Of a DNA stretch of 64,000 bases, positions 24,654-47,938 are shown piece by piece (the first letter of the stretch is position 1; every line of letters begins with the position of its first letter). Source of the stretch: Sinorhizobium terangae (GTDB lineage: Bacteria; Pseudomonadota; Alphaproteobacteria; Rhizobiales; Rhizobiaceae); contig NZ_WITC01000126.1 in assembly GCF_009601505.1 (NCBI RefSeq), positions 1 to 64,000 of the forward strand, given 5' to 3'. The notes below the pieces were generated by a model. It saw only the letters and a program-made list of their open reading frames with translations, had not been told where the DNA came from and ran no database searches. The position numbers and the translations under genes were made by a program.

Positions 24654-24705
24654 TTCGTTGACCTCCAACATTTACAGGCGGGCCGGTCTTTGCCGACAGC
24701 GGCAT

Positions 24706-26247: not shown

Positions 26248-26347
26248 ATTGGTCACCCTTTTTCATCTGGCCTCGTCGAACGGCGGCACAGGAAACGTTC
26301 GAGATGTCGGGTCTTCCGCAGGTTCCTGCCAGCGGAAGACCGCGCTT

Positions 26348-27847: not shown

Positions 27848-27950
27848 TGGGCCTGCCCCCTTTTCGAGATTCGGATGATGCCTCCAGGAAGAGGCACCGT
27901 TGGTGGAATGTTGGGCCGGGTAAGGTTCCGGCCATTGTCTGAGCCGGCGA

Positions 27951-28994
<1,044 letters not shown>

Positions 28995-29032
28995 TTAGAT
29001 CGAATTGATCACCCGCATCACAAAGGGGTCTT

Positions 29033-29048
29033 TGTCGCAGAACCGACA
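29033..29048. promoter_or_regulatory. NifA upstream activator site of nifH
   Basis: TGTCGCAGAACCGACA, an exact TGT-N10-ACA palindrome 90 bases upstream of the -24 element. A second TGT (29065) has no paired ACA. Confidence 0.88.
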
Positions 29049-29460
29049 ACTGGAACCAGCAATTGTCGTATAGCGCTGTCCATCCGACGTTAGGATCCCG
29101 ACAAAATGATGCTGCCGATCAAGGACTAAGGAACCGGGTTTGGGAACGCTTGTACCGCCGGCTTTGTCAGTTCGAAGTACCAGCCGCCCGATCACGTTTG
29201 CTACAGGTGGGCTTTCCGGCCCTTACCCGACTAAGGTGCGAGTGAATTGGGCCATCGGAGATCAAATGAGTACTGCCCCGAAGCTGCTTGCTCGCCATAT
29301 GAATGTGTATGCGCCCTACGTCGGTTCACGACCGAGTGCTTTGCGAAGAGTTCAGCTGTAATGCATGGCCGACATCTGCGGCGCCGGCTTGCACTTGTCG
29401 AGCACTCCGCTGGCGCCTGAGGGACGTGAGCTGACCTCAAAAGTCAGGCACGAGACAACT
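29049..29460. other. nifH upstream region without a gene
   Basis: About 410 bases between the NifA site and the 3' end of the luciferase-like gene. Small open frames are present without motifs. I see no terminator hairpin with a T-run. Confidence 0.45.
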
Positions 29461-30516
29461 TCAAGCCTCCGGCTGCCCGAGAGATTTCTGGACTGCTGGG
29501 ATGATCCTGTCTCCCCAGAGCTCGATCTGGCGCATCATCGTCTTTTGGTTCAAATCCCCTAATTGGGTCTGAATTGCAATCTGGTCCGGCTTCAAGACCT
29601 CGATCTCTTCGAGAAGGCGATCAATCACGCGATTTACGCTGCCGATCGGCAGGTTCTTGCGCATGGTATCGAACGACAGATCCTGATACGTCGGCATCTC
29701 CTCCAACATGTAGCCGTCCTGGCTCTGTTGGCGACGCTGATGCAGTGCTTCGGAAAGCCGGCGCTGGAAGCGCGCGTTATCGAGATAGCTGTTGATTTCC
29801 GCTGCACCGTCGCTGGCATAGCAGCAGCGCAGCAGCGATACCTTGGCGTCGCTCACCTTCTTGCCCTCGGATGCGGCGGCGGTCTGGATGATGCCGCGCA
29901 ACATACCCAGAGTTTCCAGCCCGTCATGGAAGGCCGTAACAAAAAGGTTGTGTCCCTCACGAAAGGCTCGGGCGACAGTTTTAGGCGACGCGGTAGCAAT
30001 CCAGATCGGCGGGGTCGGCTTTTGAAGAGTGCGCACCGAAATTGCCGTCGGGGGTATCCGCATATAGTGACCGCTGTGGGAGAAGATCTTTTGCTTGAGC
30101 CCCTTGAGCAAGATGTCGAGGTATTCCGAAAAGACGGCCGGCGCCTCATCTACATCGACGCCGAAGCGGTCGAATTCGAACTGCTGGTATCCCGAACCCA
30201 CGCCGAGTTCGAGCCGACCGTTCGCAACGATGTCGACAAAGCCGATCTCCGCCAGCAGGCGCTGTGGTTGGTAGAGCGGCAGCACGCAGACTGCGGTGCC
30301 GAGGCGAATGGTGCTCGTCAACCCGGCACAGTGGGCTACCATCAGCAAAGGCGACGGGACGAGGCTGTAGTTGTTGAAGTGGTGCTCGGCGAACCAGGCT
30401 GTGCTGAAGCCAGCCTGCTCCGAAAGGACGGCCTGTTCTATCGAGTTGCGGATCACGCTATCGGAAGATTGATGATAGCCGCGCTGGGCAGCCAGAATGA
30501 ACGTTGCAAACTCCAT
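29461..30516 (-). CDS. luciferase-like flavin-dependent monooxygenase
   Basis: 351 residues of the bacterial luciferase-like (TIM-barrel, FMN/F420) family. The start is MEFATFILAAQRGYHQ. AEHHFNNYSLVPSPLLM carries the conserved EHH motif. RLGTAVCVLPLYQPQRLLAEIGFVD and GRLELGVGSGYQQFEFDRFG follow. ATG 30516 has AAGGAG upstream. It lies 134 bases after the tandem-SDR gene, same strand, and so belongs to a SnoaL-like/SDR/monooxygenase group facing away from nif. It resembles y4vJ of pNGR234a (from memory). The substrate is unknown; the set suggests oxidative tailoring of a small molecule. Confidence 0.9.
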   Translation of the reverse strand: MEFATFILAAQRGYHQSSDSVIRNSIEQAVLSEQAGFSTAWFAEHHFNNYSLVPSPLLMVAHCAGLTSTIRLGTAVCVLPLYQPQRLLAEIGFVDIVANGRLELGVGSGYQQFEFDRFGVDVDEAPAVFSEYLDILLKGLKQKIFSHSGHYMRIPPTAISVRTLQKPTPPIWIATASPKTVARAFREGHNLFVTAFHDGLETLGMLRGIIQTAAASEGKKVSDAKVSLLRCCYASDGAAEINSYLDNARFQRRLSEALHQRRQQSQDGYMLEEMPTYQDLSFDTMRKNLPIGSVNRVIDRLLEEIEVLKPDQIAIQTQLGDLNQKTMMRQIELWGDRIIPAVQKSLGQPEA

Positions 30517-30650
30517 GGTGTCTCCTTGTTTTCGGATTAGGGATCACGCAAATCGTGATTGGCACGCCTCGATTCACGAGATCGGTTCCAATGATCCTGC
30601 GCATGGTCCTTTTTGCGCTCAGAGCGCCAGAGCTAAAGCGCGTAAATGCT

Positions 30651-32360
30651 TCAGGGAAAGAGAAGCCGTTGCGTCTCTATTAGCCGACGCCATCTACTGT
30701 CCAAAGAAACCGTCCCGTCGATTTCGCTGGCGCCTCCCGCGTCTTTGGACGAGGTCCAGCCTCCGTCCACGTGCAGGGTCGAGCCGTTGATGTAAGAGGC
30801 ATCAGACGAGGCCAGGAAATAGGCAGCTTCGGCGACTTCTTCCGGGGCCCCAGCCCTGCCCAAAGGGATCTCCAGCCGGAGCGATGTCGGGTTCATACCG
30901 GTTACCGTTTCCTCCTGGATGCCGCCAGGCGCGCGGATGTGACCTGGAGCGACTGTGGCTGTGCGGATCCCAAGTGGCCCGAATTCGGCCGCCATGCACC
31001 GGGTAAGCATGTCTATGCCAGCATTGTATGCGCCGTGGGCATGACTGGTCGCCAGGGGCAAGCGGCCGCAACTTGACCCGAGATTCACGATTACGCTGCC
31101 GGGCCGCATCGATACAGCGGCCTCGCGCACGCACGTGAAGGCGCCAGTAAGATTGACGTCCAGTATATGTTTGAGGACTGCCGACGCCCGCTCGAGATCG
31201 GGGCCAAGCGTGTCATTCATGCCAGGACCATTGACGAAGACGTCGATGTGGCCGAAGCGCTCCCGCAATTCTTTGAACAGTGCCACGACCTCGGGCTCGA
31301 CGGTCCTGTCCACGCGTCTTGCCAGGTGCTTGTTTCCGAGCAAGCCGGCGAGCTTTGTCGCTGCATCGCCGTCTCCGTCAGCGATCACAACCGTGTCGCC
31401 GTTTGCGGCAAAGCGGCGAGCGATGGCCGCGCCAATGCCATTGGCGCCACCCATGACAACCACTGTTCGCGCATCGGTGTTCTCGACCGGGCGTAAGAGT
31501 TCTGCACTGGGCGTACTGTCCTGACCCGGGTGCGCTCCACCCGGCTGGTTGAATGACATCCAACCACCATCGACCAAAAGCGTCGACCCGGTTATGTAAC
31601 TCGCCTGCGCGCTGGCCAGGAAGTGCACGACCCGCGCGATCTCGTCGGGACGAGCCAATCGGCCGATCGGTACGCGGCGCCTTATTGCGCTGACATCGAG
31701 CTTACCCGCGCGTTCCAATTTGGCAATCATAGGCGTGCGCACGTAGCCCGGCGCTACCGCCGTCACGCGGATGCCGCGCGAAGCCCAACCGCACGCCAGC
31801 GATTTCGTAATTGAGATCAGAGCAGCCTTCGAAGCGGCGTAGCCATTGCGCTTCGGATTGCCGAGCAGGCCAGCCAGCGAAGCGACGTTGACGATGGCGC
31901 CGCCAGGTTTCATCAGCTTCGCGGTTTCGCACGCCAACGAATACGGGCCCATAAGGTTCACCGCGAAAGTGCGTTGAAAATCTGCGACAGGAGTGTCGAC
32001 GGTCGCAGCCATGGTTGGCCCTATCCCCGCATTATTGACAAGCACTCCAATCTGCGAGAACTGTTTCTCCAGAAGTGTACGGCAGGCGACGACATCGTCC
32101 TCTCGCGACACGTCGAATTCGAGGCCGAGGTGGGGCGGGCCGAGATTGCGGCCAAGTTCAATTACGCCGCTGTCCGGAAGGTCCACCGCGACAACAATAT
32201 CCCGATTCGCGGCAAAGGTTTCGACTAGCGCACGGCCAATACCCCCTGCGGCACCTGTGATGATGACGACCCGCCCTGGCTGAACCGGGCTAGCGCCTAG
32301 GCGTGCACTCACTGCACGGGCGCTGGCGGCAGGAAAGGCTCGGTGGCGCAATCGTATCAT
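30651..32360 (-). CDS. tandem short-chain dehydrogenase/reductase (two SDR domains)
   Basis: 569 residues made of two SDR units. Unit 1 (about 30-275) has TGAAGGIG for NAD(P), NNAG, and the catalytic YAASK. Unit 2 (about 295-545) has GGANGIG. Its active-site stretch reads [10 protein letters not shown], so Lys of YxxxK is replaced by Ile and this half is probably inactive or structural. Both end with the SDR signature [14 protein letters not shown] / [14 protein letters not shown]. The ATG overlaps the stop of the SnoaL-like gene. It resembles y4vI of pNGR234a (from memory). It likely oxidises or reduces a hydroxyl or keto group on an unidentified substrate. Confidence 0.92.
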
Positions 32361-32938
32361 TGTTCTTCTTCTCCACTACCAATCCGGTCCTCTGGATACT
32401 TTGTCGAAAGAGCCCGCCGCTTCGAAAGTTCGTATACGGGATCATTTGGATACGGTGCCCCAATCGGCTGACGAGGACCGAACCGCTCTGTTTCCGAGGA
32501 CGTGGGAGGTCTCTGCTCCTCGACCCAATCATAGACCACTGTCCGCTCCGCGATGCGCCACTCTCCTTCCCTTTTTTGAAACAGATCACAGTAGCGTCCG
32601 CACAGGAGCACCTGCTTTATTTCGCCTGCCTCGTCGGGGCCGCGCTGCAGCGCGGTGAAATAGCTCTCGACGGCGGCCTCTGCCGGCCCCAAGAACTCTA
32701 TCATTGTGTTTGCAAGCTGATGGATGTTGCGCGGCTGGGTCTTGAAGACGCTGAGTGCAAACTGGATGAACCCCGCGGCAGAGCCGGAGTAACTTCCGTG
32801 ATTGTCACATGCATCGGGCCAATAACAGCTGCGCAAAGCGGCCTCGTCTGCCCGGTCGATCCCTCGACAGTAGCGATGGAGACAGTCGCGGATTGCTTCT
32901 CGGTCGAAGAGTTCGTTTATGCTTGGTTGCTTCATCAT
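32357..32938 (-). CDS. SnoaL-like / NTF2-fold protein
   Basis: 193 residues. [38 protein letters not shown] and the C-terminal [19 protein letters not shown] are typical of SnoaL_4-type cone-shaped proteins related to ring-hydroxylating dioxygenase beta subunits and small cyclases or dehydratases. The last ~40 residues are extra. It is the first gene of a coupled set with the tandem SDR (ATGA overlap) and the luciferase-like monooxygenase. No sigma-54 or NifA site was found in front. The exact reaction is unknown. Confidence 0.82.
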
Positions 32939-33184
32939 CTATAGAGCTTCTGAAGATCCGGAGCGTTTCCACTTCACGGCTGATGCGGTAAGGACCTGTA
33001 GTTGTCCGTGCGCACCTAGCCAGACTAAGGGTGCGGCCCTGTTAACCAAGACAGCCACGCCAAGGCGCGATTGAGAAGAAACGGCACGGACCCAAGCGGC
33101 CACTGCCGTTTTGCCCACGAAGGTTGAGGTAAGCACTTTTTGGGCGTGCAGAACTAGCTCGGGCGGAACACTGTTTCCGTTTCG

Positions 33185-33577
33185 TCACGCCGCCTTGGAT
33201 TCCGCAAGGAACTGTTTGAAAAAGTCTTTGAACGAGTTTGAGACGTCGACGAGCACCTTCGAGGTAAGCGCCTGGGATTCTCTGATCTGATCGACACTTG
33301 CATCCACGCGCTTGCGCACGAATGCCGACTGCAGTTCGACAACCTGGGACGGCGAGTCAGCCTCAAGCAACGCTTGAAGCTGTGAGAAATTGGCTTCGGC
33401 GTTGGCCTGCAGCGCAGTAATTGTCTTCAGTGTCAATTCGATCCCTGCCGTAGTCGTGGATTCGAAGATCGAATCAACCAGTTTCTGCGCCTCAAAAGCG
33501 TGTGGGTTGATGGCCTTGGAATGACTAAAGAAAGGGTTTTCAAGAGGTTCAAGGGATTTTTCCGCGTTTTTGGTCAT
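33185..33577 (-). CDS. phasin family protein (polyhydroxybutyrate granule)
   Basis: 130 residues, mostly amphipathic helix, with the Phasin_2-type stretches NPHAFEAQKLVDSIFESTTTA, LKTITALQANAEANFSQLQA and LVDVSNSFKDFFKQFLAES. Phasins coat carbon-storage granules. ATG 33577 follows GGAAG. The upstream region carries a sigma-54 promoter (33706) and a perfect NifA palindrome (33810), so it should be made in nodules, where PHB competes with nitrogenase for reductant. It stands alone in its transcript. Confidence 0.85.
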   Translation of the reverse strand: MTKNAEKSLEPLENPFFSHSKAINPHAFEAQKLVDSIFESTTTAGIELTLKTITALQANAEANFSQLQALLEADSPSQVVELQSAFVRKRVDASVDQIRESQALTSKVLVDVSNSFKDFFKQFLAESKAA

Positions 33578-33705
33578 ATGACTTCCTTCCGGTTACGCTA
33601 GTCTGGTTTCCCGCTCTGGAGGTGGCACCATGGATCGAGGTCTCGTTCACTCGAGGCTGTGGTGGGGGGGTCTACTCAGCGGTCACCTGCTCTCAAATGG
33701 AGGCA

Positions 33706-33721
33706 TTCAACGTTCATGCCA
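33706..33721 (-). promoter_or_regulatory. sigma-54 promoter of the phasin gene
   Basis: TGGCATGAACGTTGAA on the minus strand; GG/TTG spacing is right, although -24 ends in T and -12 in A. It is nearly identical to the element at 60663 (TGGCATGAACCTTGAA) and similar to the one at 19300. Confidence 0.75.
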
Positions 33722-33809
33722 GTTCCACACGGAGCTCTCCTGATGAACTTTAGGATTCATTTTCAGTTACTTAGGTGCAGGTGTGCAGGAAGTGCTTCAG
33801 AAATGCCTT

Positions 33810-33825
33810 TGTCGTTAATTCGACA
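33810..33825. promoter_or_regulatory. NifA upstream activator site of the phasin gene
   Basis: TGTCGTTAATTCGACA inside the longer palindrome CTTTGTCG...CGACAAAG, an exact TGT-N10-ACA site about 90 bases above the -24 element. Confidence 0.88.
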
Positions 33826-33867
33826 AAGCCGACAGGATGTTCCGGATGGCCCGCCTACTGCATGGTT

Positions 33868-33961
33868 CCTCAAATCGTAGCCGATTTGAGGATAAAAACC
33901 TGCAGCGATTCAAAGTGCTACAGCGTCCTTTGCGCGTCTGATTAGACGCGCGGCGCTGTAG
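33868..33961. repeat. two-hairpin dispersed element, copy A
   Basis: Hairpin 1 is CCTCAAATCG-TAGC-CGATTTGAGG. Hairpin 2 (33918-33961) has outer arms CTACAGCG/CGCTGTAG and inner arms GCGCGTCT/AGACGCGC. The spacer and hairpin 2 are almost identical to copy B at 55785-55878, while hairpin 1 differs with compensating changes. It resembles the palindromic intergenic repeats common in Sinorhizobium. Confidence 0.8.
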
Positions 33962-34300
33962 TGCGCTGAGTGTGAAGGAAGCGGGATCGTTTCGCCCTCG
34001 TAGTGTAGCAGACGTCACTGGCCGCTGTGCTCTCCGGCATGGCCTGGGATGATTATCGCGCCACCACGGACAGCCTAATGAACGGATCATCAGCTCATAA
34101 GACTGATAGTTTCCAGCGTCCTATATCTGGCGCGCTGGACGGTCCATTCGTCATTGACATCCTGATCGGTGACTTCGACAAGGTGAGTCTGGAAGGTCGG
34201 ATCAGTAGCTGACCGTGACGGGAATGATTGAGAGGAGCTTGGCTCCAAATCAACAGGTATCCGGCAGCGCACCGAGGCGCTGCCGGACCGAGCGTTTGCA

Positions 34301-34945
34301 TCAGGTCGGCTGATGCAGGCGGATGTTGAACAGTGGCCCGCGGCTGTAGCGGGCAAAGGTCTTGGCCGCGGCAAGCACTCCAGATCAATAAGCGGTTCGA
34401 CAAGAATGACGCTCATATAAGCGAGGCCGAAGGAGCCGACCGCCGAGAGATTTTCGACGCTGAAGCCATGGCCATAGAGCGCCCAAAACGCCACCCAGGC
34501 GACGATACCGCCCTGGTAGGCCGTCGAAAGCGCCAGCGCCTGGATGTACCTCGTGTCGACGTATGCGGTCTGAGCCGGGATGATCCGCTGCGCGAGCGCA
34601 CTGATGAGCCAGAGCGAAACCAGCAAAGTCGTGACGTTCATGCCGTATTGCGGCAGATCGTAGAGTGCGAAGAACAGCCCCTGAATAAGAAGACCCGCTG
34701 CAAGACCGATCGCCGCCCTGCGCCGAACATCAGCAGCAAGGTCGATCCAAGGATAAGGTGGACCTCCGAGACACCCACCGGACGGTGCGGCAGCAACTCA
34801 AAGAAGCAGAAGACGAGCGGTGGTCGCCAGACTGCGCATGGCCAAGGCACCGAAGCCGTCATTGTTGCGGACGCTGTCCACCGCCATCTTGGCCGTTAGG
34901 CCGAATGCCCCGGCGGCTGTTGCATAGCTCAGGATGGTTTTGGCG
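34301..34945 (-). pseudogene. CbiM-type cobalt/nickel transporter permease, multiply frameshifted
   Basis: Reading across frames on the minus strand gives LSYATAAGAFGLTAKMAVDS, FGALAMRSLATT, FCFFELLPHRPVGVSEVHLI, GSTLLLMFGAG, QGLFFALYDLPQYGMNVTTL and YGHGFSVENLSAVG. It ends LAAAKTFARYSRGP, with a normal stop at 34301. This is the membrane component of energy-coupling-factor cobalt/nickel importers. At least three frame changes (near 34800, 34720 and 34385) destroy it. No other ECF subunit is nearby. Confidence 0.75.
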
Positions 34946-35286
34946 AGGGGGCGCCGATCGCCTCACGGAACCAAGGCAGTGGCCTATGCCATTCTATGAA
35001 GCTGGCAGAGTGAACTTCTTCGCCGCGATCGCCGATCTGAGGCAGCCCGCCGCCTTCAGGCTTACCGAGTTCCGCCGCCGCGAGTGCTGCGGTTTTCAAC
35101 GGCTCGCCGGCGGTATTCCGGCGCATGCGCGGACACCCGGTCTAAGCAAGCCTGCGCAACCAGCTCGGCCTTTTCCGTCTCGATGTTTCCGCCCGAGCTT
35201 CATTCGGTCGAACCGCCGCGGTACATGACCCGTACTCCCGGTGATGTGGGAGCGGTGCGGCCGCGAAGCGGCCCCTGTCCGATCAC

Positions 35287-35302
35287 TGTCGGATTTCCGA
35301 CA
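35287..35302. promoter_or_regulatory. NifA upstream activator site facing the N-N bond cluster
   Basis: TGTCGGATTTCCGACA, an exact and symmetric TGT-N10-ACA site, 46 bases above the -24 element at 35349. Confidence 0.87.
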
Positions 35303-35348
35303 GCATAGCAAATCCGCTAACCCATTGCTTTGATGAAACTTATTTGTG

Positions 35349-35364
35349 TGGCACGGTTCATGCA
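35349..35364 (+). promoter_or_regulatory. sigma-54 promoter upstream of the N-N bond cluster
   Basis: TGGCACGGTTCATGCA on the plus strand: a perfect -24 and a -12 with the essential TGC. It drives an iscA-like start at 35400 and then the N-hydroxylase gene at 35802. Confidence 0.82.
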
Positions 35365-35399
35365 TCGGATCTCCGAACGCATCAGCGAGAAGTCATCCC

Positions 35400-35777
35400 A
35401 TGATCACCTTCACCCAAAATGCCATCGCCGCCGTGAAAACGGCGCGCTCGGGTGCCGCCAAGCCGGCGGAAGACCCAATACAGGACCTGTACATGGATAG
35501 GGCCGCTTCCGTCGCGGCCATGAAACAGCCATTCCCTGCGGTTTGGGCAGCCAGTAGCCTAATAAGATGCGAAAGAGCTGCGCCACAGCACCACATAGCG
35601 GTCCCGTGGTGGACCGCTCCCGCTGTCGATGGCCGACCGCGGGACCGAGGCCCCGGAGCCGCGCAGGCCTTTGGCTTACTCGAACTCGTTCGCGGCCGCG
35701 GCTCGAGAGAAGGCGCTCGAGGGGCGGAGCCTCAATGGCTTTTGCCGATATTCGCCGCCACCATGCCGCTAACGTAG
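35400..35777 (+). CDS. chimeric ORF with the N-terminus of an IscA-like protein
   Basis: 125 codons. The first ~24 residues (MITFTQNAIAAVKTARSGAA) copy the start of the IscA-like protein at 61324 (MITLTDSAIAAVKFALSQAD). After that the similarity ends and no Cys motif follows. The rest is Pro/Arg-rich without homology I recognise. The promoter-iscA start thus looks like a transplanted 5' end. The stop is 24 bases before the GTG of the N-hydroxylase, so transcription and perhaps translation could run through. It is probably not a functional Fe-S protein. Confidence 0.45.
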   Translation: MITFTQNAIAAVKTARSGAAKPAEDPIQDLYMDRAASVAAMKQPFPAVWAASSLIRCERAAPQHHIAVPWWTAPAVDGRPRDRGPGAAQAFGLLELVRGRGSREGARGAEPQWLLPIFAATMPLT

Positions 35778-35801
35778 TAAACATTAACAGGAGAAAAGCA
35801 G

Positions 35802-37101
35802 GTGGAGTTTTCTTGCATGGGGGTGGGTGCTGGGCCGTCTAATTTGAGTCTTGCGTGTCAGATACACGAAGAAGTTGGACAAGGGGCGCTGTTTCTGGAT
35901 CGGCAGGTCGACTTCCGTTGGCATCCAGGCGTGGCATTCGATTCTTCGGAGCTCCAGGTCAGCCATTTCAAGGATCTGGTCACGTTAGTGAATCCGCGTT
36001 CGGCCTACACCTTCGTGAACTTTCTGTACGAGAACGGCCGTCTGTACCACTTCCTGAACGCACAATTCGAGGCCGTGCTCAGAGCCGAGTTCGAGCAATA
36101 CCTGAACTGGGCCTTTCATAGGAACCCGCTTGTCCGCAGCGGGGAGACGGTGCGCGAAATCTGCTTTGACGGCGAGTTTCGGGTGCGAACGGACACCACT
36201 ATTTTTGGCGCTAGAAACGTCGTGGTCGGGATTGGCAAGCAGGCACAAATACCGCCTCAGTTTCAGGGCTGGACTGGACGCAACCTGTTCCACTCATCTG
36301 TTTTACTGCACATCCATCCTGAGGTGCGGAAGAAGCATGTCTGTGTGGTTGGCGGAGGCCAGTCGGGAGCCGAGGTGCTGTTGCACCTTGTCGGGCTGCC
36401 AAAAAAACAGCGGCCCGCCTCGATCACTTGGGTCTCGCAGCGCGAAAACTACCTCCCTATCGACAACAGCCCCTTTACAAACGAGATGTTCATGCCCTGC
36501 TTTTCGGATCACTTCGCGGCCATGAGCGAGACGCAACGCAAGCAGCTCCTCGGCCGCTTCGTGCTAGCCTCGGACGGCATTTCGGAAACCACGTTGCGCG
36601 CGGTCTATCAGGAGCTGTACCGCCACGCATTTCTCGAGCCAAACCGATGCGACATCACACTGCGGCCGGGTTGCACCGCGCTGCATCAACGCCGGCGCGG
36701 GCCATAGGCTGACCCTGCAGCGCGACATGGACGATATCGAAGAAGTCACGGCCGACATTGTCATCCTGGCCACCGGTTACGAGAACGCGGTGCCGGGCTT
36801 CTTGGAACCCATCGCGGACCGGCTGGAACAGATCGACAACGAGTTGGCTATTCGCGAGGACTTTTCGGTGTGCTGGGACGGACCGCATGACAGGCGCATC
36901 TTCGTGCAGAACGCCAGCCTCGGGCAGCGAGGGCTGGCCGATCCGAATCTTAGCCTGCTGGCCTGGCGGGCGCGGCGGATTCTCGACAGTCTTCTGGGGC
37001 GTGCGTCATACGCGAAACCCGAAAATCCTGGCTTCATCAGTCGCACCTTTGTCGAGAGCTGGCCCGACCCCGTGGCCGTAGAAATGGGCCGGCGGATATG
37101 A
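35802..37101 (+). CDS. lysine/ornithine N-monooxygenase (SidA/IucD/PvdA family), interrupted by a frameshift
   Basis: The GTG start has AGGAG eight bases upstream. Frame 1 (35802-36707) has the FAD motif GVGAGPSNLSLA, the substrate stretch DLVTLVNPRSAYTFVNFL, and NADPH motif VVGGGQSGAEVLLHL. It also has QRENYLPIDNSPFTNEMF. After a shift near 36670 the match continues through DIVILATGYENAVPGFLEP and IFVQNASLGQRGLADPNLSLLAW to 37101. Restored, it is about 430 residues, a normal length. The family hydroxylates the side-chain amine of Lys or Orn. The stop overlaps the next ATG by four bases. The break may be a real mutation or a one-base sequence error. Next to a cupin-MetRS fusion, the likely product is N6-hydroxylysine. 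Confidence 0.82.
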
Positions 37102-38216
37102 CTCGTCGGCTACTCATAATCGGCGGTGGCATCCAAGGAATGATGTCCGCCTCAGCAGCGGCGAAGGTCGGAACCTTCTCCGAAATCATGGTGACTGAAC
37201 AAGGCTTTGGATGCATGGGCGCATCGCATTATTCTGGGGGCGTCCAAATCCCTTACGGTCGTCAAGACCGCACTAGATCGCTAACTCGAAAGAGCGCGAT
37301 GGCCTTGGCGACCATAGCAGGGTCGGATGTCAACGGATGGTACCGGTCTGTAACGATGCGTGTCGCGGCTGGCCCAGAGGAAGCGATTGATCCGGCGCAG
37401 TTTACGGAACCTCTAGAGGCGGCTGAGCCTGACATGGGCAGTCTTGCGCCGAGCTTTTCGGACAGTATTCGTTTTTGGAGCATCGGTGGAGCTCATGTCG
37501 CAGACGTGCCCGCCCTAGTAGTTCAATTACAACGCGACCTTGCAGCAAAGATTCGCATGAAGCAGGGCTTGCGTTGCGTGAGCCTGCGCGAAAGGGACGA
37601 CGCCGCGGAGGCGGAATTCGCTACGGGCGAGATCATCAAGGCGGATGCTGTTATCTTGGCGGTCGGCCCTTGGATCGTCCAGCCCCCATTTCGCGAGCTG
37701 AGCGAGACGTTCTCAATCCGTATCAAGAAAGTCGTGGCGCTGCATCTCGAGCGGACTTCTACACTGAATGATCCACTTATCTTCATGCCCGGAGTCGATG
37801 CCTTCCTGCTGCCACAGCCACGCGTCAACCGCTGGCTGTTCAGCTATGCTTCGGCCGATTGGGACGTGCGGCCCGAAACGGTGGCCTGCGGCCTGTCGCG
37901 AAGTGATCTGGAGGCCGGCCGTGCGGTGCTGGAGCGGTTCTGCCCTGGTCTAGGCTGGGATTTGACCTCTGGCCGCGTCTTCTGTGACGCCTATAGCCCG
38001 ACTGGCGCCCCCGTAGTCGCCCGCCTGACCGCCCAGAGCCGGATTATCCTGGTGGGCTGCCAACGGGTCTGGCTACCGTTTCTCTCCGCAACTTGCATGG
38101 GAGGCTGTTTCGATGGCTTCCACCGTCTTAACAGCTTAGGTTTGTCATGCGGAAATTTAGGTTTTCTCAAACGGCGCTGTACCGTGCCTTCGGTATCAAC
38201 ATGGCCACACTTGTAA
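37098..38216 (+). CDS. FAD-dependent amino-acid-oxidase-like protein (DAO family)
   Basis: The opening RLLIIGGGIQGMMSASAAAK is a dinucleotide-binding motif. SHYSGGVQIPYGR, ADAVILAVGPWI and VFCDAYSPTGAPVVARL follow, as in D-amino-acid oxidase/glycine oxidase relatives. The last ~45 codons of this frame are not family-like. One frame over, the DNA reads AANGSGYRFSPQLAWEAV and stops at 38139, the expected DAO C-terminus. One extra or missing base near 38057 would explain this. The restored gene ends seven bases before the next ATG. In known hydrazine pathways a flavoprotein acts on the N-N bonded intermediate; a similar role is inferred. Confidence 0.75.
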   Translation: MTRRLLIIGGGIQGMMSASAAAKVGTFSEIMVTEQGFGCMGASHYSGGVQIPYGRQDRTRSLTRKSAMALATIAGSDVNGWYRSVTMRVAAGPEEAIDPAQFTEPLEAAEPDMGSLAPSFSDSIRFWSIGGAHVADVPALVVQLQRDLAAKIRMKQGLRCVSLRERDDAAEAEFATGEIIKADAVILAVGPWIVQPPFRELSETFSIRIKKVVALHLERTSTLNDPLIFMPGVDAFLLPQPRVNRWLFSYASADWDVRPETVACGLSRSDLEAGRAVLERFCPGLGWDLTSGRVFCDAYSPTGAPVVARLTAQSRIILVGCQRVWLPFLSATCMGGCFDGFHRLNSLGLSCGNLGFLKRRCTVPSVSTWPHL

Positions 38217-40111
38217 CGGGAAGCGCCGGCATGGGTTTTTCGTTCGGTACGGTGCCACCGGGCGTCACATCCGACCCCCATCGGCACGACGAAATCGAGG
38301 CCTTCGTGATCCTGTCAGGATCGGGCAAGACGAGGACCGACCTTGGGGAAGTCTCGGTCGAGGCGGGCGATGTCATTCTGCTCGATCCTTTCGAAGCACA
38401 TGTGCTTGGAAACGACGGGAACGAAAACCTGAATTTTGTCGATGTCTACTGGCGCGACGGCGAGGCGGCCCTTGATGTCGCTGCACGCGACGCAGCTCCA
38501 CGCGGGCCGATTTTCGTCTTCTCGACGCCGCCGACGCCAAACGGCGATCTGCATTTGGGGCATATCTCAGGCCCCTATTTGGGCGCCGACGTTTACACGC
38601 GTTTCCTGCGCATGAAAGGGGTCGAAGCATATCACCTGACTGGAAGCGACGATTACCAGAGCTACGTCGCCACACGCGCCGATGCCGACCAATCGACGCC
38701 CGCAAAGGTGGCGCGCCACTATGCTGACGAGATTCGCGCCACGTTTGCACTTCTTGACTGTGAGGTCCACAGCTTCTTGTCCACGATGCGCGATGACGCC
38801 TATGCGGAGTTTCAAGCCACGTGTTTTCGTAGTCTTCTGAGCAGCACGGCGGTCGAACTGCGCGAAAGCGCCGCGCTTTTCGATGCGGTGACAGGCCAGT
38901 ACCTTTACGAACCGGACGTTAGCGGCCGCTGCCCCGATTGCGGCGAGCCCGCCGGTGGGAACATTTGCGAAGAATGCGGCGCGCCCAACCTATGCCACGA
39001 CTTGGGTGCAGCCCGGTCACGACAGTCGGCCGAGGGGCCGGTGGTCGGCTCTGTCCGCCGCGCGGAACTTGCGCTGGACCGGCACTACGACAATATCGAC
39101 AGGCATCTAAGGGCCTCGGGCGCCCCGGCAAGGATCATGGACCTCTTCGCGCGTCTACGCCAGCGCGGCGACTTTTCAGTGCCGATTACCCACCCCTCAG
39201 ACTGGGGCCTCCCGGCCGAGGGGATCCCAGGGCAGGTGATCTGGGCCTCGCCGGAGATGGCCTTCAGTTTTCTTTACAATATTCAGACGTTAGCTCGCTC
39301 GCAAGGTCGCGACTGGAATGCGGCCATACCCAGCAACGACTGGCAGATTGTCCATTTCTTCGGCTTCGACAATTCGTTCTCCCTCGCGCTACTTTGTCCC
39401 GCGCTTTATGCCGAGGTCTTCTCCCAGTGGAGGCCGAGCATCCGCTATCATGTCAACGAGTTTTACCTGCTGGACGGGGAGAAGTTTTCGACCAGCCGCG
39501 GCCATGCGATCTGGGGCAAGGAGGTTCTGAACCCAAAGATGGTCGATGTCGTGCGCCTCCATTTGGGTTTGACTCGCCCGGAAGGTGAGCGGGCGAACTT
39601 CACGCTGAACGCGCTGCGCCGCACCGAGCACGACGTGTTTCGAGGGATTTGGCTGAACTGGCTTGACGCTTTGGGCCAGGAAATCGCGCAGCTTTTCAAC
39701 GGCCGTGTGCCCGACGCAGGTGACTGGAGTCCGGCCGACCGAGCCTTCTTCGCCCGAATTGAGACCTACCGCGCGGCGATGGAGCGCACCTATTCGGACG
39801 ATGGCTTCTCGGTCCGACGCGCCGCTGCACAGGCCTGCGACTTTGTGCGCGAATGCGTGAGCTACCGTCAAGCGCAAGACTATGCGGCGGCGCGACGTCT
39901 TTATCCCGCCCGCAACCGTACTTCGCTCGCCCTTCAGACGACGGCCGCTGCGATCCTCGCGCAGACACTCGCGCCGCTGATGCCCCGGTTCGCCAGCACA
40001 CTGGCGCGAGCAATCGGCGGCGTCTCAACCGAAACATGGCCCCAGTCCGTCCAGCGCCTTGCCCCCGACACGACATTTGATCTCAGACCCCTGCTGGTGT
40101 TCTACGCCTGA
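38147..40111 (+). CDS. cupin / methionyl-tRNA synthetase-like fusion, putative hydrazine synthetase
   Basis: 654 residues, intact. Residues 1-~115 are a cupin with metal ligands in HRHDEIEAF and EAHVLG. Residues ~120-640 are a class I aminoacyl-tRNA-synthetase domain of MetRS type: NGDLHLGHISGPYLGADVYT for HIGH, a zinc knuckle CPDCG/CEECG, and KFSTSRG for KMSKS. It lacks a separate anticodon or tRNA-binding extension. Such cupin-MetRS fusions (Spb40 of the s56-p1 pathway is the known example) join N6-hydroxylysine and an amino acid through an N-N bond using ATP. Here it follows an N-hydroxylase and a flavoprotein in one operon, the same enzyme set. The amino acid partner and end product are unknown. 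Confidence 0.85.
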   Translation: MRKFRFSQTALYRAFGINMATLVTGSAGMGFSFGTVPPGVTSDPHRHDEIEAFVILSGSGKTRTDLGEVSVEAGDVILLDPFEAHVLGNDGNENLNFVDVYWRDGEAALDVAARDAAPRGPIFVFSTPPTPNGDLHLGHISGPYLGADVYTRFLRMKGVEAYHLTGSDDYQSYVATRADADQSTPAKVARHYADEIRATFALLDCEVHSFLSTMRDDAYAEFQATCFRSLLSSTAVELRESAALFDAVTGQYLYEPDVSGRCPDCGEPAGGNICEECGAPNLCHDLGAARSRQSAEGPVVGSVRRAELALDRHYDNIDRHLRASGAPARIMDLFARLRQRGDFSVPITHPSDWGLPAEGIPGQVIWASPEMAFSFLYNIQTLARSQGRDWNAAIPSNDWQIVHFFGFDNSFSLALLCPALYAEVFSQWRPSIRYHVNEFYLLDGEKFSTSRGHAIWGKEVLNPKMVDVVRLHLGLTRPEGERANFTLNALRRTEHDVFRGIWLNWLDALGQEIAQLFNGRVPDAGDWSPADRAFFARIETYRAAMERTYSDDGFSVRRAAAQACDFVRECVSYRQAQDYAAARRLYPARNRTSLALQTTAAAILAQTLAPLMPRFASTLARAIGGVSTETWPQSVQRLAPDTTFDLRPLLVFYA

Positions 40112-40133
40112 CAGCGTTTTACATTATCTGATT

Positions 40134-41402
40134 TTACATCGTCCATAGAACGGAAAGCGGCGCAGCCTGCAATTTTTCGCTGAACGGCGTCACACGGTCA
40201 TGATCATGCAGGACCAGTCCGCGCATAAAACGGTCGCCGACGGCCTCCTGCAATTGCCGCAGTCCCCTGAACTCCTCAGGTTTGACCGTGGCCGACGCCA
40301 TAACCTCGATGCCGACTATCCGGCCGCGTCGGTCCTCGATCACGACGTCAACTTCATTCTGATCCTTGGTTCGGTAATGGGAGAAGGAAAGGCGACGCTC
40401 GGACCAGGACGCCAGCTTCATCAGCTCGGATATGACGAAGCTCTCGAGCAAGGGGCCGAACCGGGTTTTGTTGTCGCGCAAGGCATCGACTTCGTCCTCA
40501 CGCAATGTCGCGAGCAGGCCCGTGTCGAGAAAGTGCAGTTTGGGCGTTTTTATCAGACGGGTCAGCCGGTTGCTTGACCATGGGACCAGCGTCCTGACGA
40601 GAAACAGTCGCGCGAGAATCGAAACATACCTCTGTGCGGTAACACTCGACAGGCCTAGCGCCGCGCCAAAACTGCTGTGATTCACCAGTTGCCCTGCATG
40701 TTCCGCAAGGACGTCCAGTAGTCGCGGCAGCCGATCCAGCTGATCGATGTTGGCAATATCGCGCACGTCGCGATCGCGGATGAGCGCCACGTAGTCCTCA
40801 AGCCAGGCAATTCGTCTGGCAGGTGTCGCCCTGCGCAAGACCTCCGGATAACCGCCGCGCACGACGGTTTCCAAAAGATCATCGCCAAATACTGCGTCTT
40901 CATCGATCGACGGCTCCTCGCCTGCGAAGAGCCGATTCAGCAACCGACCCGGAGTGGAGCGGATTTCCGATTGAGCGAATGGCAATAGCGGTATCACCGC
41001 CATGCGTCCTGCCAGAGAGTCTGCGATGGCCGGTACAGTCGCGAGATTGGCTGACCCCATTAACAGGAAACGACCCGGCGCATCGTCCCGGTCGACACTT
41101 TCCTTGATGGCCAGTATCAGCTCCGGAGCTCGCTAAACTTCATCGATAATTGCCCGTTTGAGACCGCGAATGAAACCGACCGGATCGGATTTGGCGGCAT
41201 TGAGTGCACCGGCGTCGTCAAGCGTGATGTAAGGACGCTCGGCGCTCGCGAATTGTCGTGCAAGAGTGGTTTTTCCGGCTTGCCGCGGTCCCGCAATGAG
41301 CACGACTCGTGTGTCGGCGAGTGAGGCCTGGACGATCGGACGGGCCTTACGGTGGATGAGCGTTTTCGGATGATGTGTATCATTCATGCGTCCAATCTTC
41401 AT
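40134..41402 (-). pseudogene. AAA-type ATPase with DUF4143, interrupted by an amber stop
   Basis: One continuous frame apart from a TAG at 41133-41135. The first part has the Walker A AGPRQAGKTTLARQ and ends RAIIDEV. The stop stands where relatives have Gln in IIDEVQRAPELIL, and the frame resumes with RAPELILAIKESVDRDD and LLMGSANL. It continues through EDYVALIRDRDVRDIANIDQ and the DUF4143 part (ALGLSSVTAQRYVSILARLF, LHFLDTGLLATL, EVDVVIEDR). A CAG-to-TAG change would account for it. The family is of unknown function, often mobile. Confidence 0.8.
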
Positions 41403-41890
41403 TCAGTTATCGTCTAATTTAAAGCGCTGATGCGTCCAGCTTAAACAATAGACTTGGAGTGACTCCGATAGGCTCATGATGCTCAAGTCGGCTCTCCGTG
41501 ATCTTCGAAGAGTCGATGGCCATCAGTGGCGACAACGCCACTCTTCATGCAAGCGTCCTCAATAGATCAGGTGGCAACGAGCTTTGGGTAAATCCGAGCC
41601 ATTCCCGACCGTTTAGCCTTGCCGATTTTGCTATCCCAGTGCGCCTAAGCAGAAAGTGCAAAACGCCAACAAGCGATATCCGCCGCCTCACGCCCGGCGA
41701 TACGATCTATCCGCTTTCAGTCAGCAACACCTCGTCGCCGCGAGGTGACGATTGCCACCGAGTGTGTTCCGGCCCCCGTTGGTAAACCTTGGAAGGGCAA
41801 GCTGCGGGAGGCGGTCGATCTGTCGCCGATGTGACCGTCGACTGTGCATCCCCTCGCCTTGATCCTATACGAACCCGGACCACCGGAAGG
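41403..41890. other. intergenic stretch, no gene recognised
   Basis: Nearly 490 bases between the ATPase remnant and the PIN toxin. Plus-strand frames of 70-95 codons are present without motifs. Confidence 0.4.
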
Positions 41891-42310
41891 TCATCGGTGG
41901 TCCCAAGGGTTTACTACGATGACTCCTGCCGCTTCGAAGGGGCTGGTGTCGCGCGTAGCTATGATAAATCCCTTGGAGGCGGCAATGGCGGCAATATATC
42001 CGTCGGGCGTCGGGAATCCCTTCCCGGCCGCTCGCGCCGCCACCGCTAGGTCGGCATAATGCCGAGCAGCGCCGATGTCGAAAGGCAGCACGCGATGGCC
42101 AAACAGTTCGAGCACGCCGTCAAGCGTTTCGGTCAGAGCCTTCTTGCGCCGCCCGTCAGGCAACGCACCGATACCAAACAACAGTTCGGCTAGCGTCACA
42201 CTGGACAGATATAGGGTTTCAGCGACCTGCTCGTTCAACCATGAGCGCACAGCCGGATTGGGTTCTGGTTTCATCGCCTCGGAGACGACATTCGTATCCA
42301 AGACGATCAT
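41891..42310 (-). CDS. VapC-like PIN-domain toxin
   Basis: 139 residues. The PIN-domain acidic residues are in MIVLDTNVVSE, VTLAELLFGI and PTPDGYIAAIA, with IIATRDTSPF closing the site. These enzymes are Mg-dependent RNases that cut tRNA or rRNA. The ATG overlaps the stop of the upstream antitoxin gene, and all catalytic residues are present, so the module looks intact. It probably stabilises the plasmid. Confidence 0.92.
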   Translation of the reverse strand: MIVLDTNVVSEAMKPEPNPAVRSWLNEQVAETLYLSSVTLAELLFGIGALPDGRRKKALTETLDGVLELFGHRVLPFDIGAARHYADLAVAARAAGKGFPTPDGYIAAIAASKGFIIATRDTSPFEAAGVIVVNPWDHR

Positions 42311-42561
42311 TCAAACCTCATTGGTTCCGCCGGCGCCCCGTCACGTACCTGGTCAAACACTGCGAAATCATCATTGGTCAGTCCCAGCCGCCGGCCGAGC
42401 TCCGCCAAGGCATCTCCCATACGCACGCGCGGCTCGGGCTTCACTACACTTTCCAAAATCGCACGGACTTCCGCTTCGGTGCTGTGGCCGTGCATCGCCG
42501 CGCGCACGCGCAAAGCGCGATGCACCTCATCGGGCACATTCCGAACTGTCAGGATGGCCAT
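42307..42561 (-). CDS. VapB/FitA-like ribbon-helix-helix antitoxin
   Basis: 84 residues from ATG 42561 (MAILTVRNVPDEVHRALRVR); the frame is open two codons further to a TTG. The N-terminal Arc/MetJ-type ribbon-helix-helix (TVRNVPDEVHRALRVRAAMH, STEAEVRAIL) binds the operator, and the C-terminal tail (LTNDDFAVFDQVRDG) should clamp the toxin. It is translationally coupled to the PIN toxin. Confidence 0.9.
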   Translation of the reverse strand: MAILTVRNVPDEVHRALRVRAAMHGHSTEAEVRAILESVVKPEPRVRMGDALAELGRRLGLTNDDFAVFDQVRDGAPAEPMRFE

Positions 42562-42832
42562 AGTCAAACCCTCGCATTGCCTTCAATGACAGCAATATAA
42601 TCGCTATGCAGTCACCTCGCAAGTTTTCTCCGAGAAACGAGCAGCCCACTACACGGCCGGGAACTCCTCGCCCGGACGTGCGAAGTGGAGTGCCTGGGGA
42701 CGAATGCAGGCAAATGCCGGGCTGCCCTCCGGCAGATCGAGTCGGGCTGGAAAGTCGCCCAGTGCCGTTTCGATCCGGCCAAGGCGATATGTGCCCGTCA
42801 CCCGGTTTCACGTCAATCCACTCGGCAGGTAA
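42562..42832. other. spacer between toxin-antitoxin module and bacterioferritin remnant
   Basis: About 270 bases. A plus-strand frame reads RTCEVECLGTNAGKCRAALR with regular Cys residues, but I cannot match it to a family. It may be the end of a decayed gene. Confidence 0.35.
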
Positions 42833-42848
42833 TTAGAATTATTCTAAA
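42833..42848. promoter_or_regulatory. iron control element (Irr-type box) upstream of bacterioferritin
   Basis: TTAGAATTATTCTAAA matches the rhizobial ICE motif TTAGAA-N3-TTCTAA. It lies about 70 bases before the bacterioferritin ATG, where Irr is known to act on iron-storage genes. Confidence 0.7.
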
Positions 42849-42916
42849 ACAACAAGCGCCTCAGCCTGAGGCTGATGGTCCTACCAACATCCACCCCTGA
42901 TAAATGGATGTGTGCC

Positions 42917-43170
42917 ATGAAAGGTGATCCGAAAGTTATCGAGCGGCTCAACGAAGCGCTCTACCTGGAACTCGCTGTGGTCAACCAGATCTGGCTGAAC
43001 TATCGCCAACTCGAGAACTGGGCTACACCAAGCTCGCCCAGAAGGAGCGCGCCGAATCGATCGACGAAATGCACCATGCCGACAAACTCGTCACACGCAT
43101 CATCTTCCTCGACGGACTTCCGCACCTGCAGAGCCTGGCGCCGCTCAGAGAAGAGGTATCTTATCACTAG
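42917..43170 (+). pseudogene. bacterioferritin, frameshifted and truncated
   Basis: [20 protein letters not shown] and LNYRQLENW match the Bfr N-terminus, with the first ferroxidase Glu in NEALYLEL. A missing G (CTGGGCTAC for CTGGGGCTAC) shifts the frame. The match then resumes as [39 protein letters not shown] and APL. Homology ends at about 43152, where a toxin-antitoxin module begins, so roughly half the gene is gone. The iron box upstream survives. Confidence 0.85.
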
Positions 43171-43187
43171 GTATTACTACGTGATAA
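43161..43187. promoter_or_regulatory. operator of the ribbon-helix-helix/ParE module
   Basis: TTATCAC (43161-43167) and GTGATAA (43181-43187) are 7-base inverted arms 13 bases apart, ending 10 bases before the antitoxin ATG. This is typical placement for autorepression by a toxin-antitoxin pair. Confidence 0.6.
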
Positions 43188-43197
43188 GGTGTCCACT

Positions 43198-43470
43198 ATG
43201 GCAACGTCTCTCAAGATCGACGACACACTGAAAAGTCGCGTCCAGCAGCTCGCCAGCCAGCGCCGCCGCTCGCCTCACTGGATCATGCTCGAAGCGATCC
43301 AACAGTACGTTGAGCGCGAGGAAGCACGCGAGAGCTTCAAGCAGGAGGCCTTGGCGTCCTGGGCCGCGTACAAGGAAACCGGTCGCCACCTGACCGGCGA
43401 AGAAGTCCGCACCTGGTTGACTACCTGGGGCACCGATGACGAAAAGCCGGTGCCAGAGTGCCACAAGTAA
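43198..43470 (+). CDS. CopG/ribbon-helix-helix antitoxin of a ParE-type module
   Basis: 90 residues from ATG 43198 ([20 protein letters not shown]). The ribbon-helix-helix fold covers about the first 45 residues ([20 protein letters not shown]). The C-terminal part ([20 protein letters not shown]) is the usual toxin-binding tail of ParD-like proteins. It overlaps the toxin start by 13 bases. The operator just upstream suggests autoregulation. It has landed within a bacterioferritin gene. Confidence 0.9.
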
Positions 43471-43913
43471 TCGTCACCGAAGGCACTGCGGAAGGCTTGG
43501 AGCGATGCCGACGCTTCCTGGCCACTAAGGCCCCGGAAGCCGCTAGACGGGCCGGCCAGGCCATCGAGCAATTCCTGCTTCTGGAGACGGCGCCTGACAT
43601 TGGCCGGCCGTCCCCCGAAGCGCCTGAGCTGCGCGAGCTGGTGATTGCCTTTGGGGACTCCGGCTATGTGGCCCTGTACCGTCACGAGCCGGCCGACGAT
43701 TCGGTGTATGTTCTGCCTTCCGGCATCAGAAGGAAGCGGGCTACTAACCTAATCGACCATGCCACGCTGCTCGCGGCGGTTGCGCCGGTGGCGTTCGATC
43801 GGCGCAGCGCGAGCCTCCGCGCGTTGTTGGCCCCGTCGGCCCGAAGCTGGTCAAGTGAAGAACGTTGTGGGAACATCGCCGACGCAGTTGACGGCTTGCC
43901 TGAGAAGGAATGA
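43458..43913 (+). CDS. RelE/ParE-family toxin with a C-terminal frameshift
   Basis: GTG start. [38 protein letters not shown] and SGYVALYRHEPADDSVYVL are the ParE/RelE core. Relatives then end with AFRHQKEAGY. Here those residues appear in another frame, closing with TAA at 43747, because one G seems missing (CTGCCTTCC for CTGGCCTTCC). The present frame runs on with about 60 unrelated residues. The catalytic C-terminal strand is therefore lost, and the toxin may be inactive unless the shift is a sequence error. Confidence 0.8.
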   Translation: MPQVIVTEGTAEGLERCRRFLATKAPEAARRAGQAIEQFLLLETAPDIGRPSPEAPELRELVIAFGDSGYVALYRHEPADDSVYVLPSGIRRKRATNLIDHATLLAAVAPVAFDRRSASLRALLAPSARSWSSEERCGNIADAVDGLPEKE

Positions 43914-44444
43914 CGGTCCGGATCTGGCTGATCGCTGGAGTCTGAACGTAGCCCACGTTAGAGAACGAGGGATGCAGGGCGGCGGTAGCGAAGAGGCATT
44001 CCAAGAACTCATAAAATGGATCGCCGGATATCGTCTTCGCGACAATTCAAGCTTTGCTGCCCATTCCCACTTATTTGAGGCATTCGTAGGCCCGAAATTT
44101 TTGCTGAAGAGCCGAATCGAAATCGGCACGCACTTGGATAATGTGTCGCGAAATTCCTGACTTTCGAACGCTGCAAAGGTCAAGATAACTTTGCAGCAGA
44201 AATCGGGATTTTCGCGCCAGCTTGACGAATCGGCACTGGCCCGACAATCTTGTTTTGGCGTGGCCTGCGCCTAATCTCCCTCCCCAGCAAGGTCTTGAAT
44301 GGAGGCAAAGGGACTTCTGTCTCAGGCCGCTGTCTTGGTCCGATCGTAGCAATCAGACGCGTAAAGTAGGGTCCGCGTTCCGTCTCTGTTCTTCACTTGG
44401 CCAAAATCGCGGCTTCGGGCCGACACGGCCTACGTGCTTACCAA
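43914..44444. other. intergenic stretch, no gene recognised
   Basis: About 530 bases between the toxin gene and the prolyl oligopeptidase 3' end. A plus-strand frame at 43972-44160 is open but has no motif or good ribosome site. Confidence 0.4.
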
Positions 44445-47874: not shown

Positions 47875-47938
47875 GTTCGCCTACCTTGATGGATGTACGC
47901 TTATGAAGACCGTGTCCGGGTCAACGATGGAATTTTAT

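Follow-up and report, generated by a model that had tools for sequence, protein, structure and literature searches.

A 64,000-nucleotide stretch of Sinorhizobium terangae DNA (contig NZ_WITC01000126.1, positions 1 to 64,000; hereafter the window) very probably holds a decaying rhizobial hydrazine operon, located on a symbiotic plasmid beside nif genes, whose intact relatives are activated by NifA and sigma-54 in nodules. The operon occupies 35802–40111 of the forward strand and encodes, in this order, a lysine/ornithine N-monooxygenase (NMO), a DAO-type flavoprotein and a hydrazine synthetase (HS) in which a cupin is fused to a methionyl-tRNA synthetase (MetRS)-like domain. Hydrazine synthetases are familiar mainly from antibiotic-type pathways. 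Here, the promoter and the distribution of the genes tie hydrazine chemistry to symbiotic nitrogen fixation, which makes an N–N nodule metabolite a concrete, testable prediction in the model strain Mesorhizobium loti R7A. Root nodules may make a hydrazine, and the cleavage enzyme of the pathway has apparently been swapped within the operon for an unrelated one, PhyH, for which a new reaction is predicted.

A Broken Three-Gene Locus

The gene order was defined by open reading frame (ORF) and family scans. The NMO (PF13434, 281 bits in the Pfam scan) is split. Its 5' part, a 301-aa ORF at 35802–36707 (+), is homologous up to residue 293 and 83% identical to residues 1–293 of the Mesorhizobium NMO, while its 3' part continues in another frame at 36679–37101 (+; ORF 36727–37101) with 84% identity to residues 295–434. 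A second comparison confirmed the break, which in the numbering of the intact 434-aa enzyme falls between residues 293 and 295. The NMO and DAO genes overlap in the ATGA at 37098–37101. The DAO gene (PF01266, 63.7 bits) encodes a Spb39-like FAD oxidoreductase, read as a 372-aa ORF at 37098–38216 (+) with a frame break near 38058, at about residue 321. The last 26 residues of the homologous C-terminus lie in another frame (38056–38139, +), with the stop ending at 38139. Compared with the intact 350-aa DAO of Mesorhizobium caraganae, identity is 80% over residues 1–321 and 69% over residues 321–346, in two frames. The HS (38147–40111, +) is a single ORF of 654 aa that joins a cupin (PF07883, residues 35–101) to a MetRS-like domain (PF09334, 157.6 bits) with its core at residues 127–492 and anticodon-domain-like helices at 521–637. 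It is 84% identical to Mesorhizobium HS across its full length, a likeness far above chance, and its C-terminus is 12 residues shorter than that of the R7A relative (654 versus 666 aa). The initial annotation described three coupled genes; the families, the order and the ATGA overlap bear this out, but both NMO and DAO have a disrupted frame and the HS is shortened. The HLGH, zinc-knuckle and KFSTSRG motifs that it named are all present in the HS.

The N-hydroxylase and oxidase genes beside the HS are thus both broken in the window, and their counterparts in M. caraganae are open. A search of the rest of the genome found no second NMO. The ratios of nonsynonymous to synonymous substitution rates (dN/dS) against relatives, 0.12–0.26 for the window NMO pieces and 0.16–0.25 for the window HS, give no sign of relaxed selection, so the frame breaks are probably recent and the decay of the HS is recent or incomplete. 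We infer that the operon has lost its function in this strain. The earlier proposal was that the plasmid makes, or made, a hydrazine metabolite; since NMO and DAO are broken and the genome has no spare NMO, "made" is the better fit and "makes" is disfavoured. The window copy is for the most part a relic, and it directs attention to the intact DAO-type operon of M. caraganae. A protein cluster of four members on three contigs has the frame-broken 372-aa DAO ORF as its representative (372/372 residues), and the database representative of the HS, on a contig of 915,721 bases, differs from the window HS by six substitutions and a later start. Other assemblies carrying the same broken locus are only hinted at, because both database rows are flagged as window-encoded proteins.

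Identity of the Hydrazine Synthetase

The solved proteins nearest in sequence to the window HS are 9l8v and 9vq4 (E ~3e-60), with true MetRS at 3e-30 or weaker, and the HS of R7A and M. caraganae rank their solved relatives in the same way. The structure model of the window HS (mean pLDDT 85.8) has as its top fold match 9l8v (E 7.7e-38, TM-score 0.89 by target length), an entry titled as the PyrN C-terminal domain with L-glutamyl-sulfamoyl-adenosine. In two trees of the MetRS part, a single branch splits off the three true MetRS (support 100/99 and 100/98), and the window HS clusters with three Mesorhizobium HS (100/100), beside those of Sinorhizobium meliloti and actinomycetes. The MetRS-like rows of Rhizobium etli and Mesorhizobium amorphae fall with the hydrazine synthetases in one tree and on the MetRS side in the other, a placement that is unsure because long branches meet in the second tree. 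The MetRS-like domain does not group with true MetRS in either tree, and among solved structures the PyrN domain is nearest to the 654-aa fusion by both sequence and fold. The genes are of the Spb38/39/40 kind, in keeping with the Spb38/Spb40 comparison in the initial annotation. A MetRS paralogue was rejected as the identity of this gene, since the sequence ranking, both trees and the fold match all favour hydrazine synthetases.

The hydrazine synthetase mechanism has been shown by others for PyrN and RHS1, and that of PyrN was worked out by Zhao et al. 2021 (PMC8664883). The RHS1 anchor used here is WP_007299751, on a plasmid of Rhodococcus DK17, an accession named in PMC8664883. Cupin residues H45, H47, E51 and H85 align to Asp63, His65, Glu69 and His103 of RHS1 in an ungapped HMMER alignment. 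In a gapped MAFFT alignment E51 and H85 are still aligned and the first two ligands shift by one residue, to R46 and D48. The zinc-site assignment relies on the ungapped alignment together with H47, E51 and H85, which are invariant among 32 relatives. Nucleotide-binding motifs of the HIGH and KMSKS type are kept in the window HS as HLGH and KFSTS.

The amino-acid pocket has changed. Sites 368, 412 and 413 of the window HS align with residues 253, 300 and 301 of Escherichia coli MetRS, in which we take residues 253, 301 and 305 to line the methionine pocket. Of 118 relatives, 117 have Trp at the first of these sites, 116 Tyr at the second and 116 His at the third; the window has Ser, Ser and Leu. 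The M. caraganae HS, from an intact operon, has Ser, Asn and His, so that W368S is common to both. At these sites the residues are Ala, Leu and Arg in the 9vq4 chain and Ala, Glu and Arg in the MetRS-like partner of RHS1 in DK17; RHS1 is a glutamate enzyme in print. In a comparison directed at glycine as a possible second substrate, R7A-type HS is identical to the S. meliloti SM11 and Streptomyces relatives at 12 of 12 pocket sites, from which the window and M. caraganae depart. Because 9vq4 and the RHS1 partner have other pocket residues, the amino acid accepted by the DAO-type rhizobial HS may be larger than that of the Trp/Tyr/His type. Decay may explain why the window lacks His 413 and Tyr 417. 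Pure decay was set aside as an account of the pocket changes, as M. caraganae has W368S in an intact operon, and a change of specificity may therefore have preceded decay.

A Probable NifA and Sigma-54 Promoter

Upstream of the NMO, pattern matching identifies a NifA upstream activator site of the form TGT-N10-ACA, TGTCGGATTTCCGACA, at 35287–35302 (+), followed by a sigma-54 −24/−12 promoter-like site, TGGCACGGTTCATGCA, at 35349–35364 (+), the latter also found in a scan of relatives. TGT-N10-ACA lies at about −505 before the NMO in most relatives scanned; 23 of 25 loci have one, with fewer in a second set. Counted as a pair when 30–250 bases apart and within 900 bases upstream of the NMO, the two sites occur in 22 of the 25 NMO loci of Mesorhizobium type, one of which is that of the window; dinucleotide shuffles predict 0.02. 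The three loci lacking the pair are L015 and L022, with no exact NifA site, and L027, with no sigma-54 match; L036 (NMO on the opposite strand) and L032, L039 and L040 (no NMO found) were left out of the scan. The second set comprised 800 bases upstream of 43 NMO loci and overlaps the first (one M. caraganae-type locus, for example, figures as L022, L097 and L126). The pair is present in 23 of these 43 loci (18/23 that bear HS, 5/20 that have NMO only), tallies that were made by hand. As the loci are related, the counts of neither set are of independent events. Neither site occurs in 6 of the 13 NMO-only loci retrieved as extra stretches. The hydrazine operons of other bacteria (L010, L011, L013, L037 and L042) have no pair, and the R. 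etli locus L012 has both sites at a spacing too wide to count as one. Its sigma-54 match, 187 bases 5' of the NMO on plasmid pB of strain CIAT 652, is free of mismatches.

NifA-dependent expression is in print for R7A msi280 only. The M. loti R7A gene msi280 is an annotated L-lysine 6-monooxygenase with the promoter CTGGCACGTTCGATGCA (PMC3538637, Table 1). In nodules, an msi280::lacZ fusion gave 371.6 Miller units in R7A, and the value was 268.9 when nifA1 was deleted and 7.3 when nifA2 was deleted; strains without lacZ gave 5.0–10.0 overall and 6.4–10.0 in the comparison of R7A with the nifA2 deletion (PMC3538637, Table 4). The gene order beside NMO-PhyH-HS in strain 131-3-5 matches R7A msi276–msi273. 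A NifA-regulated acdS lies close to the R7A operon.

In the window, an ATG just 3' of the sigma-54 promoter opens a short frame at 35400–35519, MITFTQNAIAAVKTA..., which we take to resemble the start of iscN/HesB; a Pfam scan of this frame gave no match. Capture from an iscN gene is a possible origin of the promoter.

PhyH in Place of DAO

In M. caraganae all three frames of NMO-DAO-HS are open (434, 350 and 667 aa, with the ATGA overlap). The same three genes recur in S. meliloti SM11, Rhizobium rhizogenes and Streptomyces, and the protein database holds two more Mesorhizobium DAO relatives, in M. sp. M0244 and M. albiziae (partial). A further 22 Mesorhizobium-type HS loci, each with the NMO-HS region on the contig and counted apart from the M. 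caraganae type, have a different enzyme between NMO and HS: PhyH, of the Fe/2-oxoglutarate kind. With the M. caraganae DAO as query, a piece of DAO is recognised left of PhyH in 17 of these loci and right of it in 18; 14 loci have both and 1 has none. PhyH therefore lies within a broken DAO gene. R7A-type locus L035, in which NMO, PhyH and HS are intact, belongs to strain CJ3sym, which carries the R7A island (PMC4572658). Its HS was taken to be Q8KGM6, as the genome has one HS-like place among its PF09334 matches and the gene order agrees.

PhyH is rare, with 27 proteins in the database and an occurrence in 2 of 397 genomes drawn from the order. Its residues H116-x-D118 and H198 are invariant, and its structure model is weak (pLDDT 63.2). 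The closest kin beyond the Mesorhizobium operon, at 75–82% identity, belong to a second cassette, NMO-PhyH-cupin-MetRS-like, on R. etli pB and in M. amorphae; the other proteins of the R. etli cassette are only ~31–36% identical to those of the Mesorhizobium operon. In the PhyH tree, the Mesorhizobium operon proteins form one clade (100/98) beside the R. etli type, with the joint group at 89/90. On our reading of these sequences, PhyH probably came from a cassette of the R. etli/M. amorphae type and assumed the step of DAO.

Several of these relatives have settings of their own. On R. etli CIAT 652 pB (L012, 9748–13831), an unannotated NMO, PhyH, cupin and MetRS-like gene lie between nodA and nolP/nodD2. 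On plasmid pM0123d of M. amorphae (L014, L106), a complete cassette of the second kind, with aminotransferase genes, accompanies an orphan first-kind NMO that has a DAO stub. The S. meliloti SM11 genes (pSmeSM11b; L010, 1–25590) lie within a cluster of nonribosomal peptide synthetase, AMP ligase, acyl carrier protein, GNAT, C45 peptidase and acyl-CoA dehydrogenase genes, which closely resembles Streptomyces cluster L013. HS at 48% identity was found by tblastn on six Sinorhizobium plasmids. The NMO-DAO-HS genes of R. rhizogenes pC5.7b (L011, 4287–14016) adjoin PEP-mutase-family, dapA, TauD and Rieske genes; this cassette perhaps makes another hydrazine product. Many E. coli plasmids of ~110 kb (for example, H162–H172) carry their own metG gene.

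Distribution and Selection

The distribution was surveyed in 146 genomes of a group taken as Mesorhizobium (G168), as it includes genomes 100% identical to L035 in HS and NMO. HS is present in 32 of the 146, near full length in 27 of those; NMO in 85, one of them split; and PhyH in 31, two of which belong to the R. etli-type cassette. NMO occurs in 85 of 100 nifH-bearing genomes and 0 of 46 others (Fisher p 3e-25, uncorrected for descent), where 97 of the nifH-bearing genomes score above the curated cut-off and the other three, G798, G801 and G830, contain nothing but nifH fragments that score below it. Comparison of the printed lists by hand indicates that every NMO- and HS-bearing genome carries nifH, and that 31 genomes have both NMO and HS, 54 NMO only and 1 HS only. 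NMO without HS in 54 genomes implies that NMO is kept for something else there. Among the 20 NMO-only loci examined, all have a full-length NMO ORF and 12 a recognisable piece of DAO after it.

Median dN/dS is 0.176 for NMO (24 loci), 0.13 for PhyH (19 loci, R. etli included) and 0.218 for HS (21 loci, window included); for NMO in the 20 NMO-only loci it is 0.229. These sets excluded ORFs that contain N or fall below 430 codons for NMO, 255 for PhyH and 640 for HS.

Genomic Setting and Origin

The window is contig C31 in a genome of 7.08 Mb. To the left of the operon, 20762–32938 (nifD, K, E, N and neighbours) matches the nif region of Sinorhizobium symbiotic plasmids, as does the right flank from 48286 on (P450, nifQ, peroxiredoxin, fixA). 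With a nifD, K, E, N block on one side and a nifQ block on the other, the earlier assignment to a symbiotic plasmid is well founded. In pNGR234a only ~22 bases separate the two flank blocks, where an NTF2-like gene meets a P450 gene; the operon therefore lies in an insertion of ~15.3 kb (32939–48286), absent from this otherwise contiguous site. The search within the genus covered 33 genomes, and the window's genome alone gave an HS match at E 1e-60 or better. The 84% NMO match is likewise unique to it among the genus genomes searched, three others matching at 42%. The nearest relatives of the operon are in Mesorhizobium, with near copies in Aminobacter and Bradyrhizobium, and the simplest reading is that it was transferred from a Mesorhizobium-like source.

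No assembly or tailoring genes were found adjoining the window operon. The same insertion encodes, at 40134–46667, a DUF4143 protein, a PIN-domain protein, a ParE-type toxin and a prolyl oligopeptidase; in AR10 (L015), too, a prolyl oligopeptidase gene lies 2 kb from the NMO. Elsewhere in the window, 5580–9032 (−) encodes a 1150-aa protein with molybdopterin oxidoreductase domains followed by FAD, NAD and 2Fe-2S reductase domains.

Proposed Pathway and Alternatives

In the proposed pathway, NifA with sigma-54 would switch on intact operons in nitrogen-fixing nodules. NMO would hydroxylate the side-chain nitrogen of lysine, or of a close relative, and the MetRS-like half of HS would convert a second amino acid to its adenylate and pass it to the hydroxylamine oxygen. 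The zinc cupin half is predicted to rearrange the resulting ester into an N–N bond, after which DAO would cut a C–N bond to free a small hydrazino acid. In most HS-keeping Mesorhizobium loci, the Fe/2-oxoglutarate enzyme PhyH would take the cleavage step of DAO. A more specific version of this scheme is put forward tentatively, at somewhat under even chances: Mesorhizobium bacteroids make a free hydrazino acid under direct NifA–sigma-54 control beside nitrogenase, and in most HS-bearing lineages DAO was replaced in place by a PhyH borrowed from the second cassette. Such an acid could trap host pyridoxal-phosphate enzymes, for example in ethylene synthesis, or could serve as a nodule-made nutrient of the rhizopine kind; both roles are guesses from general knowledge.

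Several points weigh against this account as a whole. The product is predicted from the genes alone, and PhyH is assigned to cleavage by its genome position only. The R7A msi280 insertion mutant was scored '+' for symbiosis and stayed effective (PMC3538637). The window HS, in a supposedly decaying operon, shows dN/dS values without relaxed selection. The strongest point against hydrazine as the sole use of NMO is the NMO-only genomes: of the 85 genomes with NMO, 54 lack an HS of this kind (the second cassette is present in 2 of the 54), and just 5 of 20 NMO-only loci have the promoter pair, with the sigma-54 site alone in 14. These genomes suggest that the selected nodule product could be N6-hydroxylysine, or a derivative made through other genes, with DAO, PhyH and HS as dispensable passengers. 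NMO tracks nifH, and all 20 NMO-only loci keep a full-length NMO under constraint (median dN/dS 0.23), 12 of them beside a piece of DAO. HS, however, is under purifying selection across its loci, PhyH under stronger selection still, and HS is near full length in most genomes that bear it; in argument rather than data, there is little reason for the operon to have taken up a second cleavage-type enzyme if NMO alone mattered. This explanation is thus unlikely, although it deserves more weight than the two that follow.

A working window operon, its breaks being assembly errors or programmed frameshifting and its changed pocket a new specificity, would account for the low dN/dS of the NMO pieces and HS, for the intact cupin ligands, HLGH and KFSTS, and for W368S in the intact M. 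caraganae operon, a site that is Ala in 9vq4 and the RHS1 partner. It is improbable in view of two separate frame breaks, an HS that lacks the residue aligned to E. coli MetRS His301 (H413L) as well as its last 12 residues, and the DAO cluster whose broken representative suggests a shared break, albeit in a row flagged as window-encoded. Pfam and NCBIfam names, which specify only a Lys/Orn oxygenase, DAO, cupin and MetRS-like protein, would also fit ordinary genes adjacent by chance: a siderophore-type hydroxylase, an amino-acid oxidase and a duplicated MetRS fused to a cupin. That arrangement is scarcely credible, since the HS groups with hydrazine synthetases rather than MetRS and the three genes keep their order in M. 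caraganae, S. meliloti SM11, R. rhizogenes and Streptomyces alike. A siderophore locus was likewise set aside; the gene table for the surroundings of the operon in Mesorhizobium sp. 131-3-5, which is incomplete, lists no gene for siderophore assembly.

Comparison with Known Systems

The kind of enzyme described here is already known. Q8KGM6 of Mesorhizobium japonicum R7A is already included in a 2024 review's table of identified hydrazine synthetases (PMC11705231, Table 2), along with hydrazine synthetases in further bacteria, so the initial annotation's belief that such a metabolite was undescribed in nodule bacteria is right only in part. Three things were found in no paper of the open-licence literature searched: the link to nodules and NifA, the exchange of DAO for PhyH at the same place in the operon, and the persistence of NMO by itself. 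Nor was any paper found there that joins NifA2-dependent msi280 with the R7A hydrazine synthetase. The initial annotation missed all three, the link in the form of its NifA/sigma-54-type promoter. By term search, PMC3538637 lacks the words "methionyl", "cupin" and "dioxygenase", the main text of the review (PMC11705231) lacks "nodul" and "symbio", Zhao 2021 (PMC8664883) lacks "symbio" and "rhizobi", and a term search of an M. loti proteome paper found no mention.

The cassettes Spb38-Spb39-Spb40 (s56-p1) and NngKLM (N-nitroglycine) are hydrazinoacetate cassettes that share with the window an NMO, a DAO-type oxidase and a cupin-MetRS HS as neighbouring genes (PMC11705231, PMC13274452). The window operon differs from them in its NifA-type promoter, its broken NMO and DAO, its altered HS pocket and the absence of assembly or tailoring genes among those found adjacent. 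With the glutamate-type enzymes PyrN and RHS1 it shares the MetRS-like fold (9l8v) and the invariant cupin Glu, but the window HS is only 29% identical to 9l8v in the structural alignment, and sites 368, 412, 413 and 417 read S, S, L, C in the window and A, L, R, F in 9vq4. The R. etli/M. amorphae cassette contributes a PhyH closely related to that of the Mesorhizobium operon, yet its NMO and HS are of other lineages and its HS is split into separate cupin and MetRS-like proteins. The nearest counterpart is the R7A operon that begins at msi280, with orthologous NMO and HS (84% identity in HS) and a NifA-type promoter at the same position. R7A-type loci, however, have PhyH after a DAO remnant in place of a whole DAO gene, and in these loci NMO, PhyH and HS are all intact.

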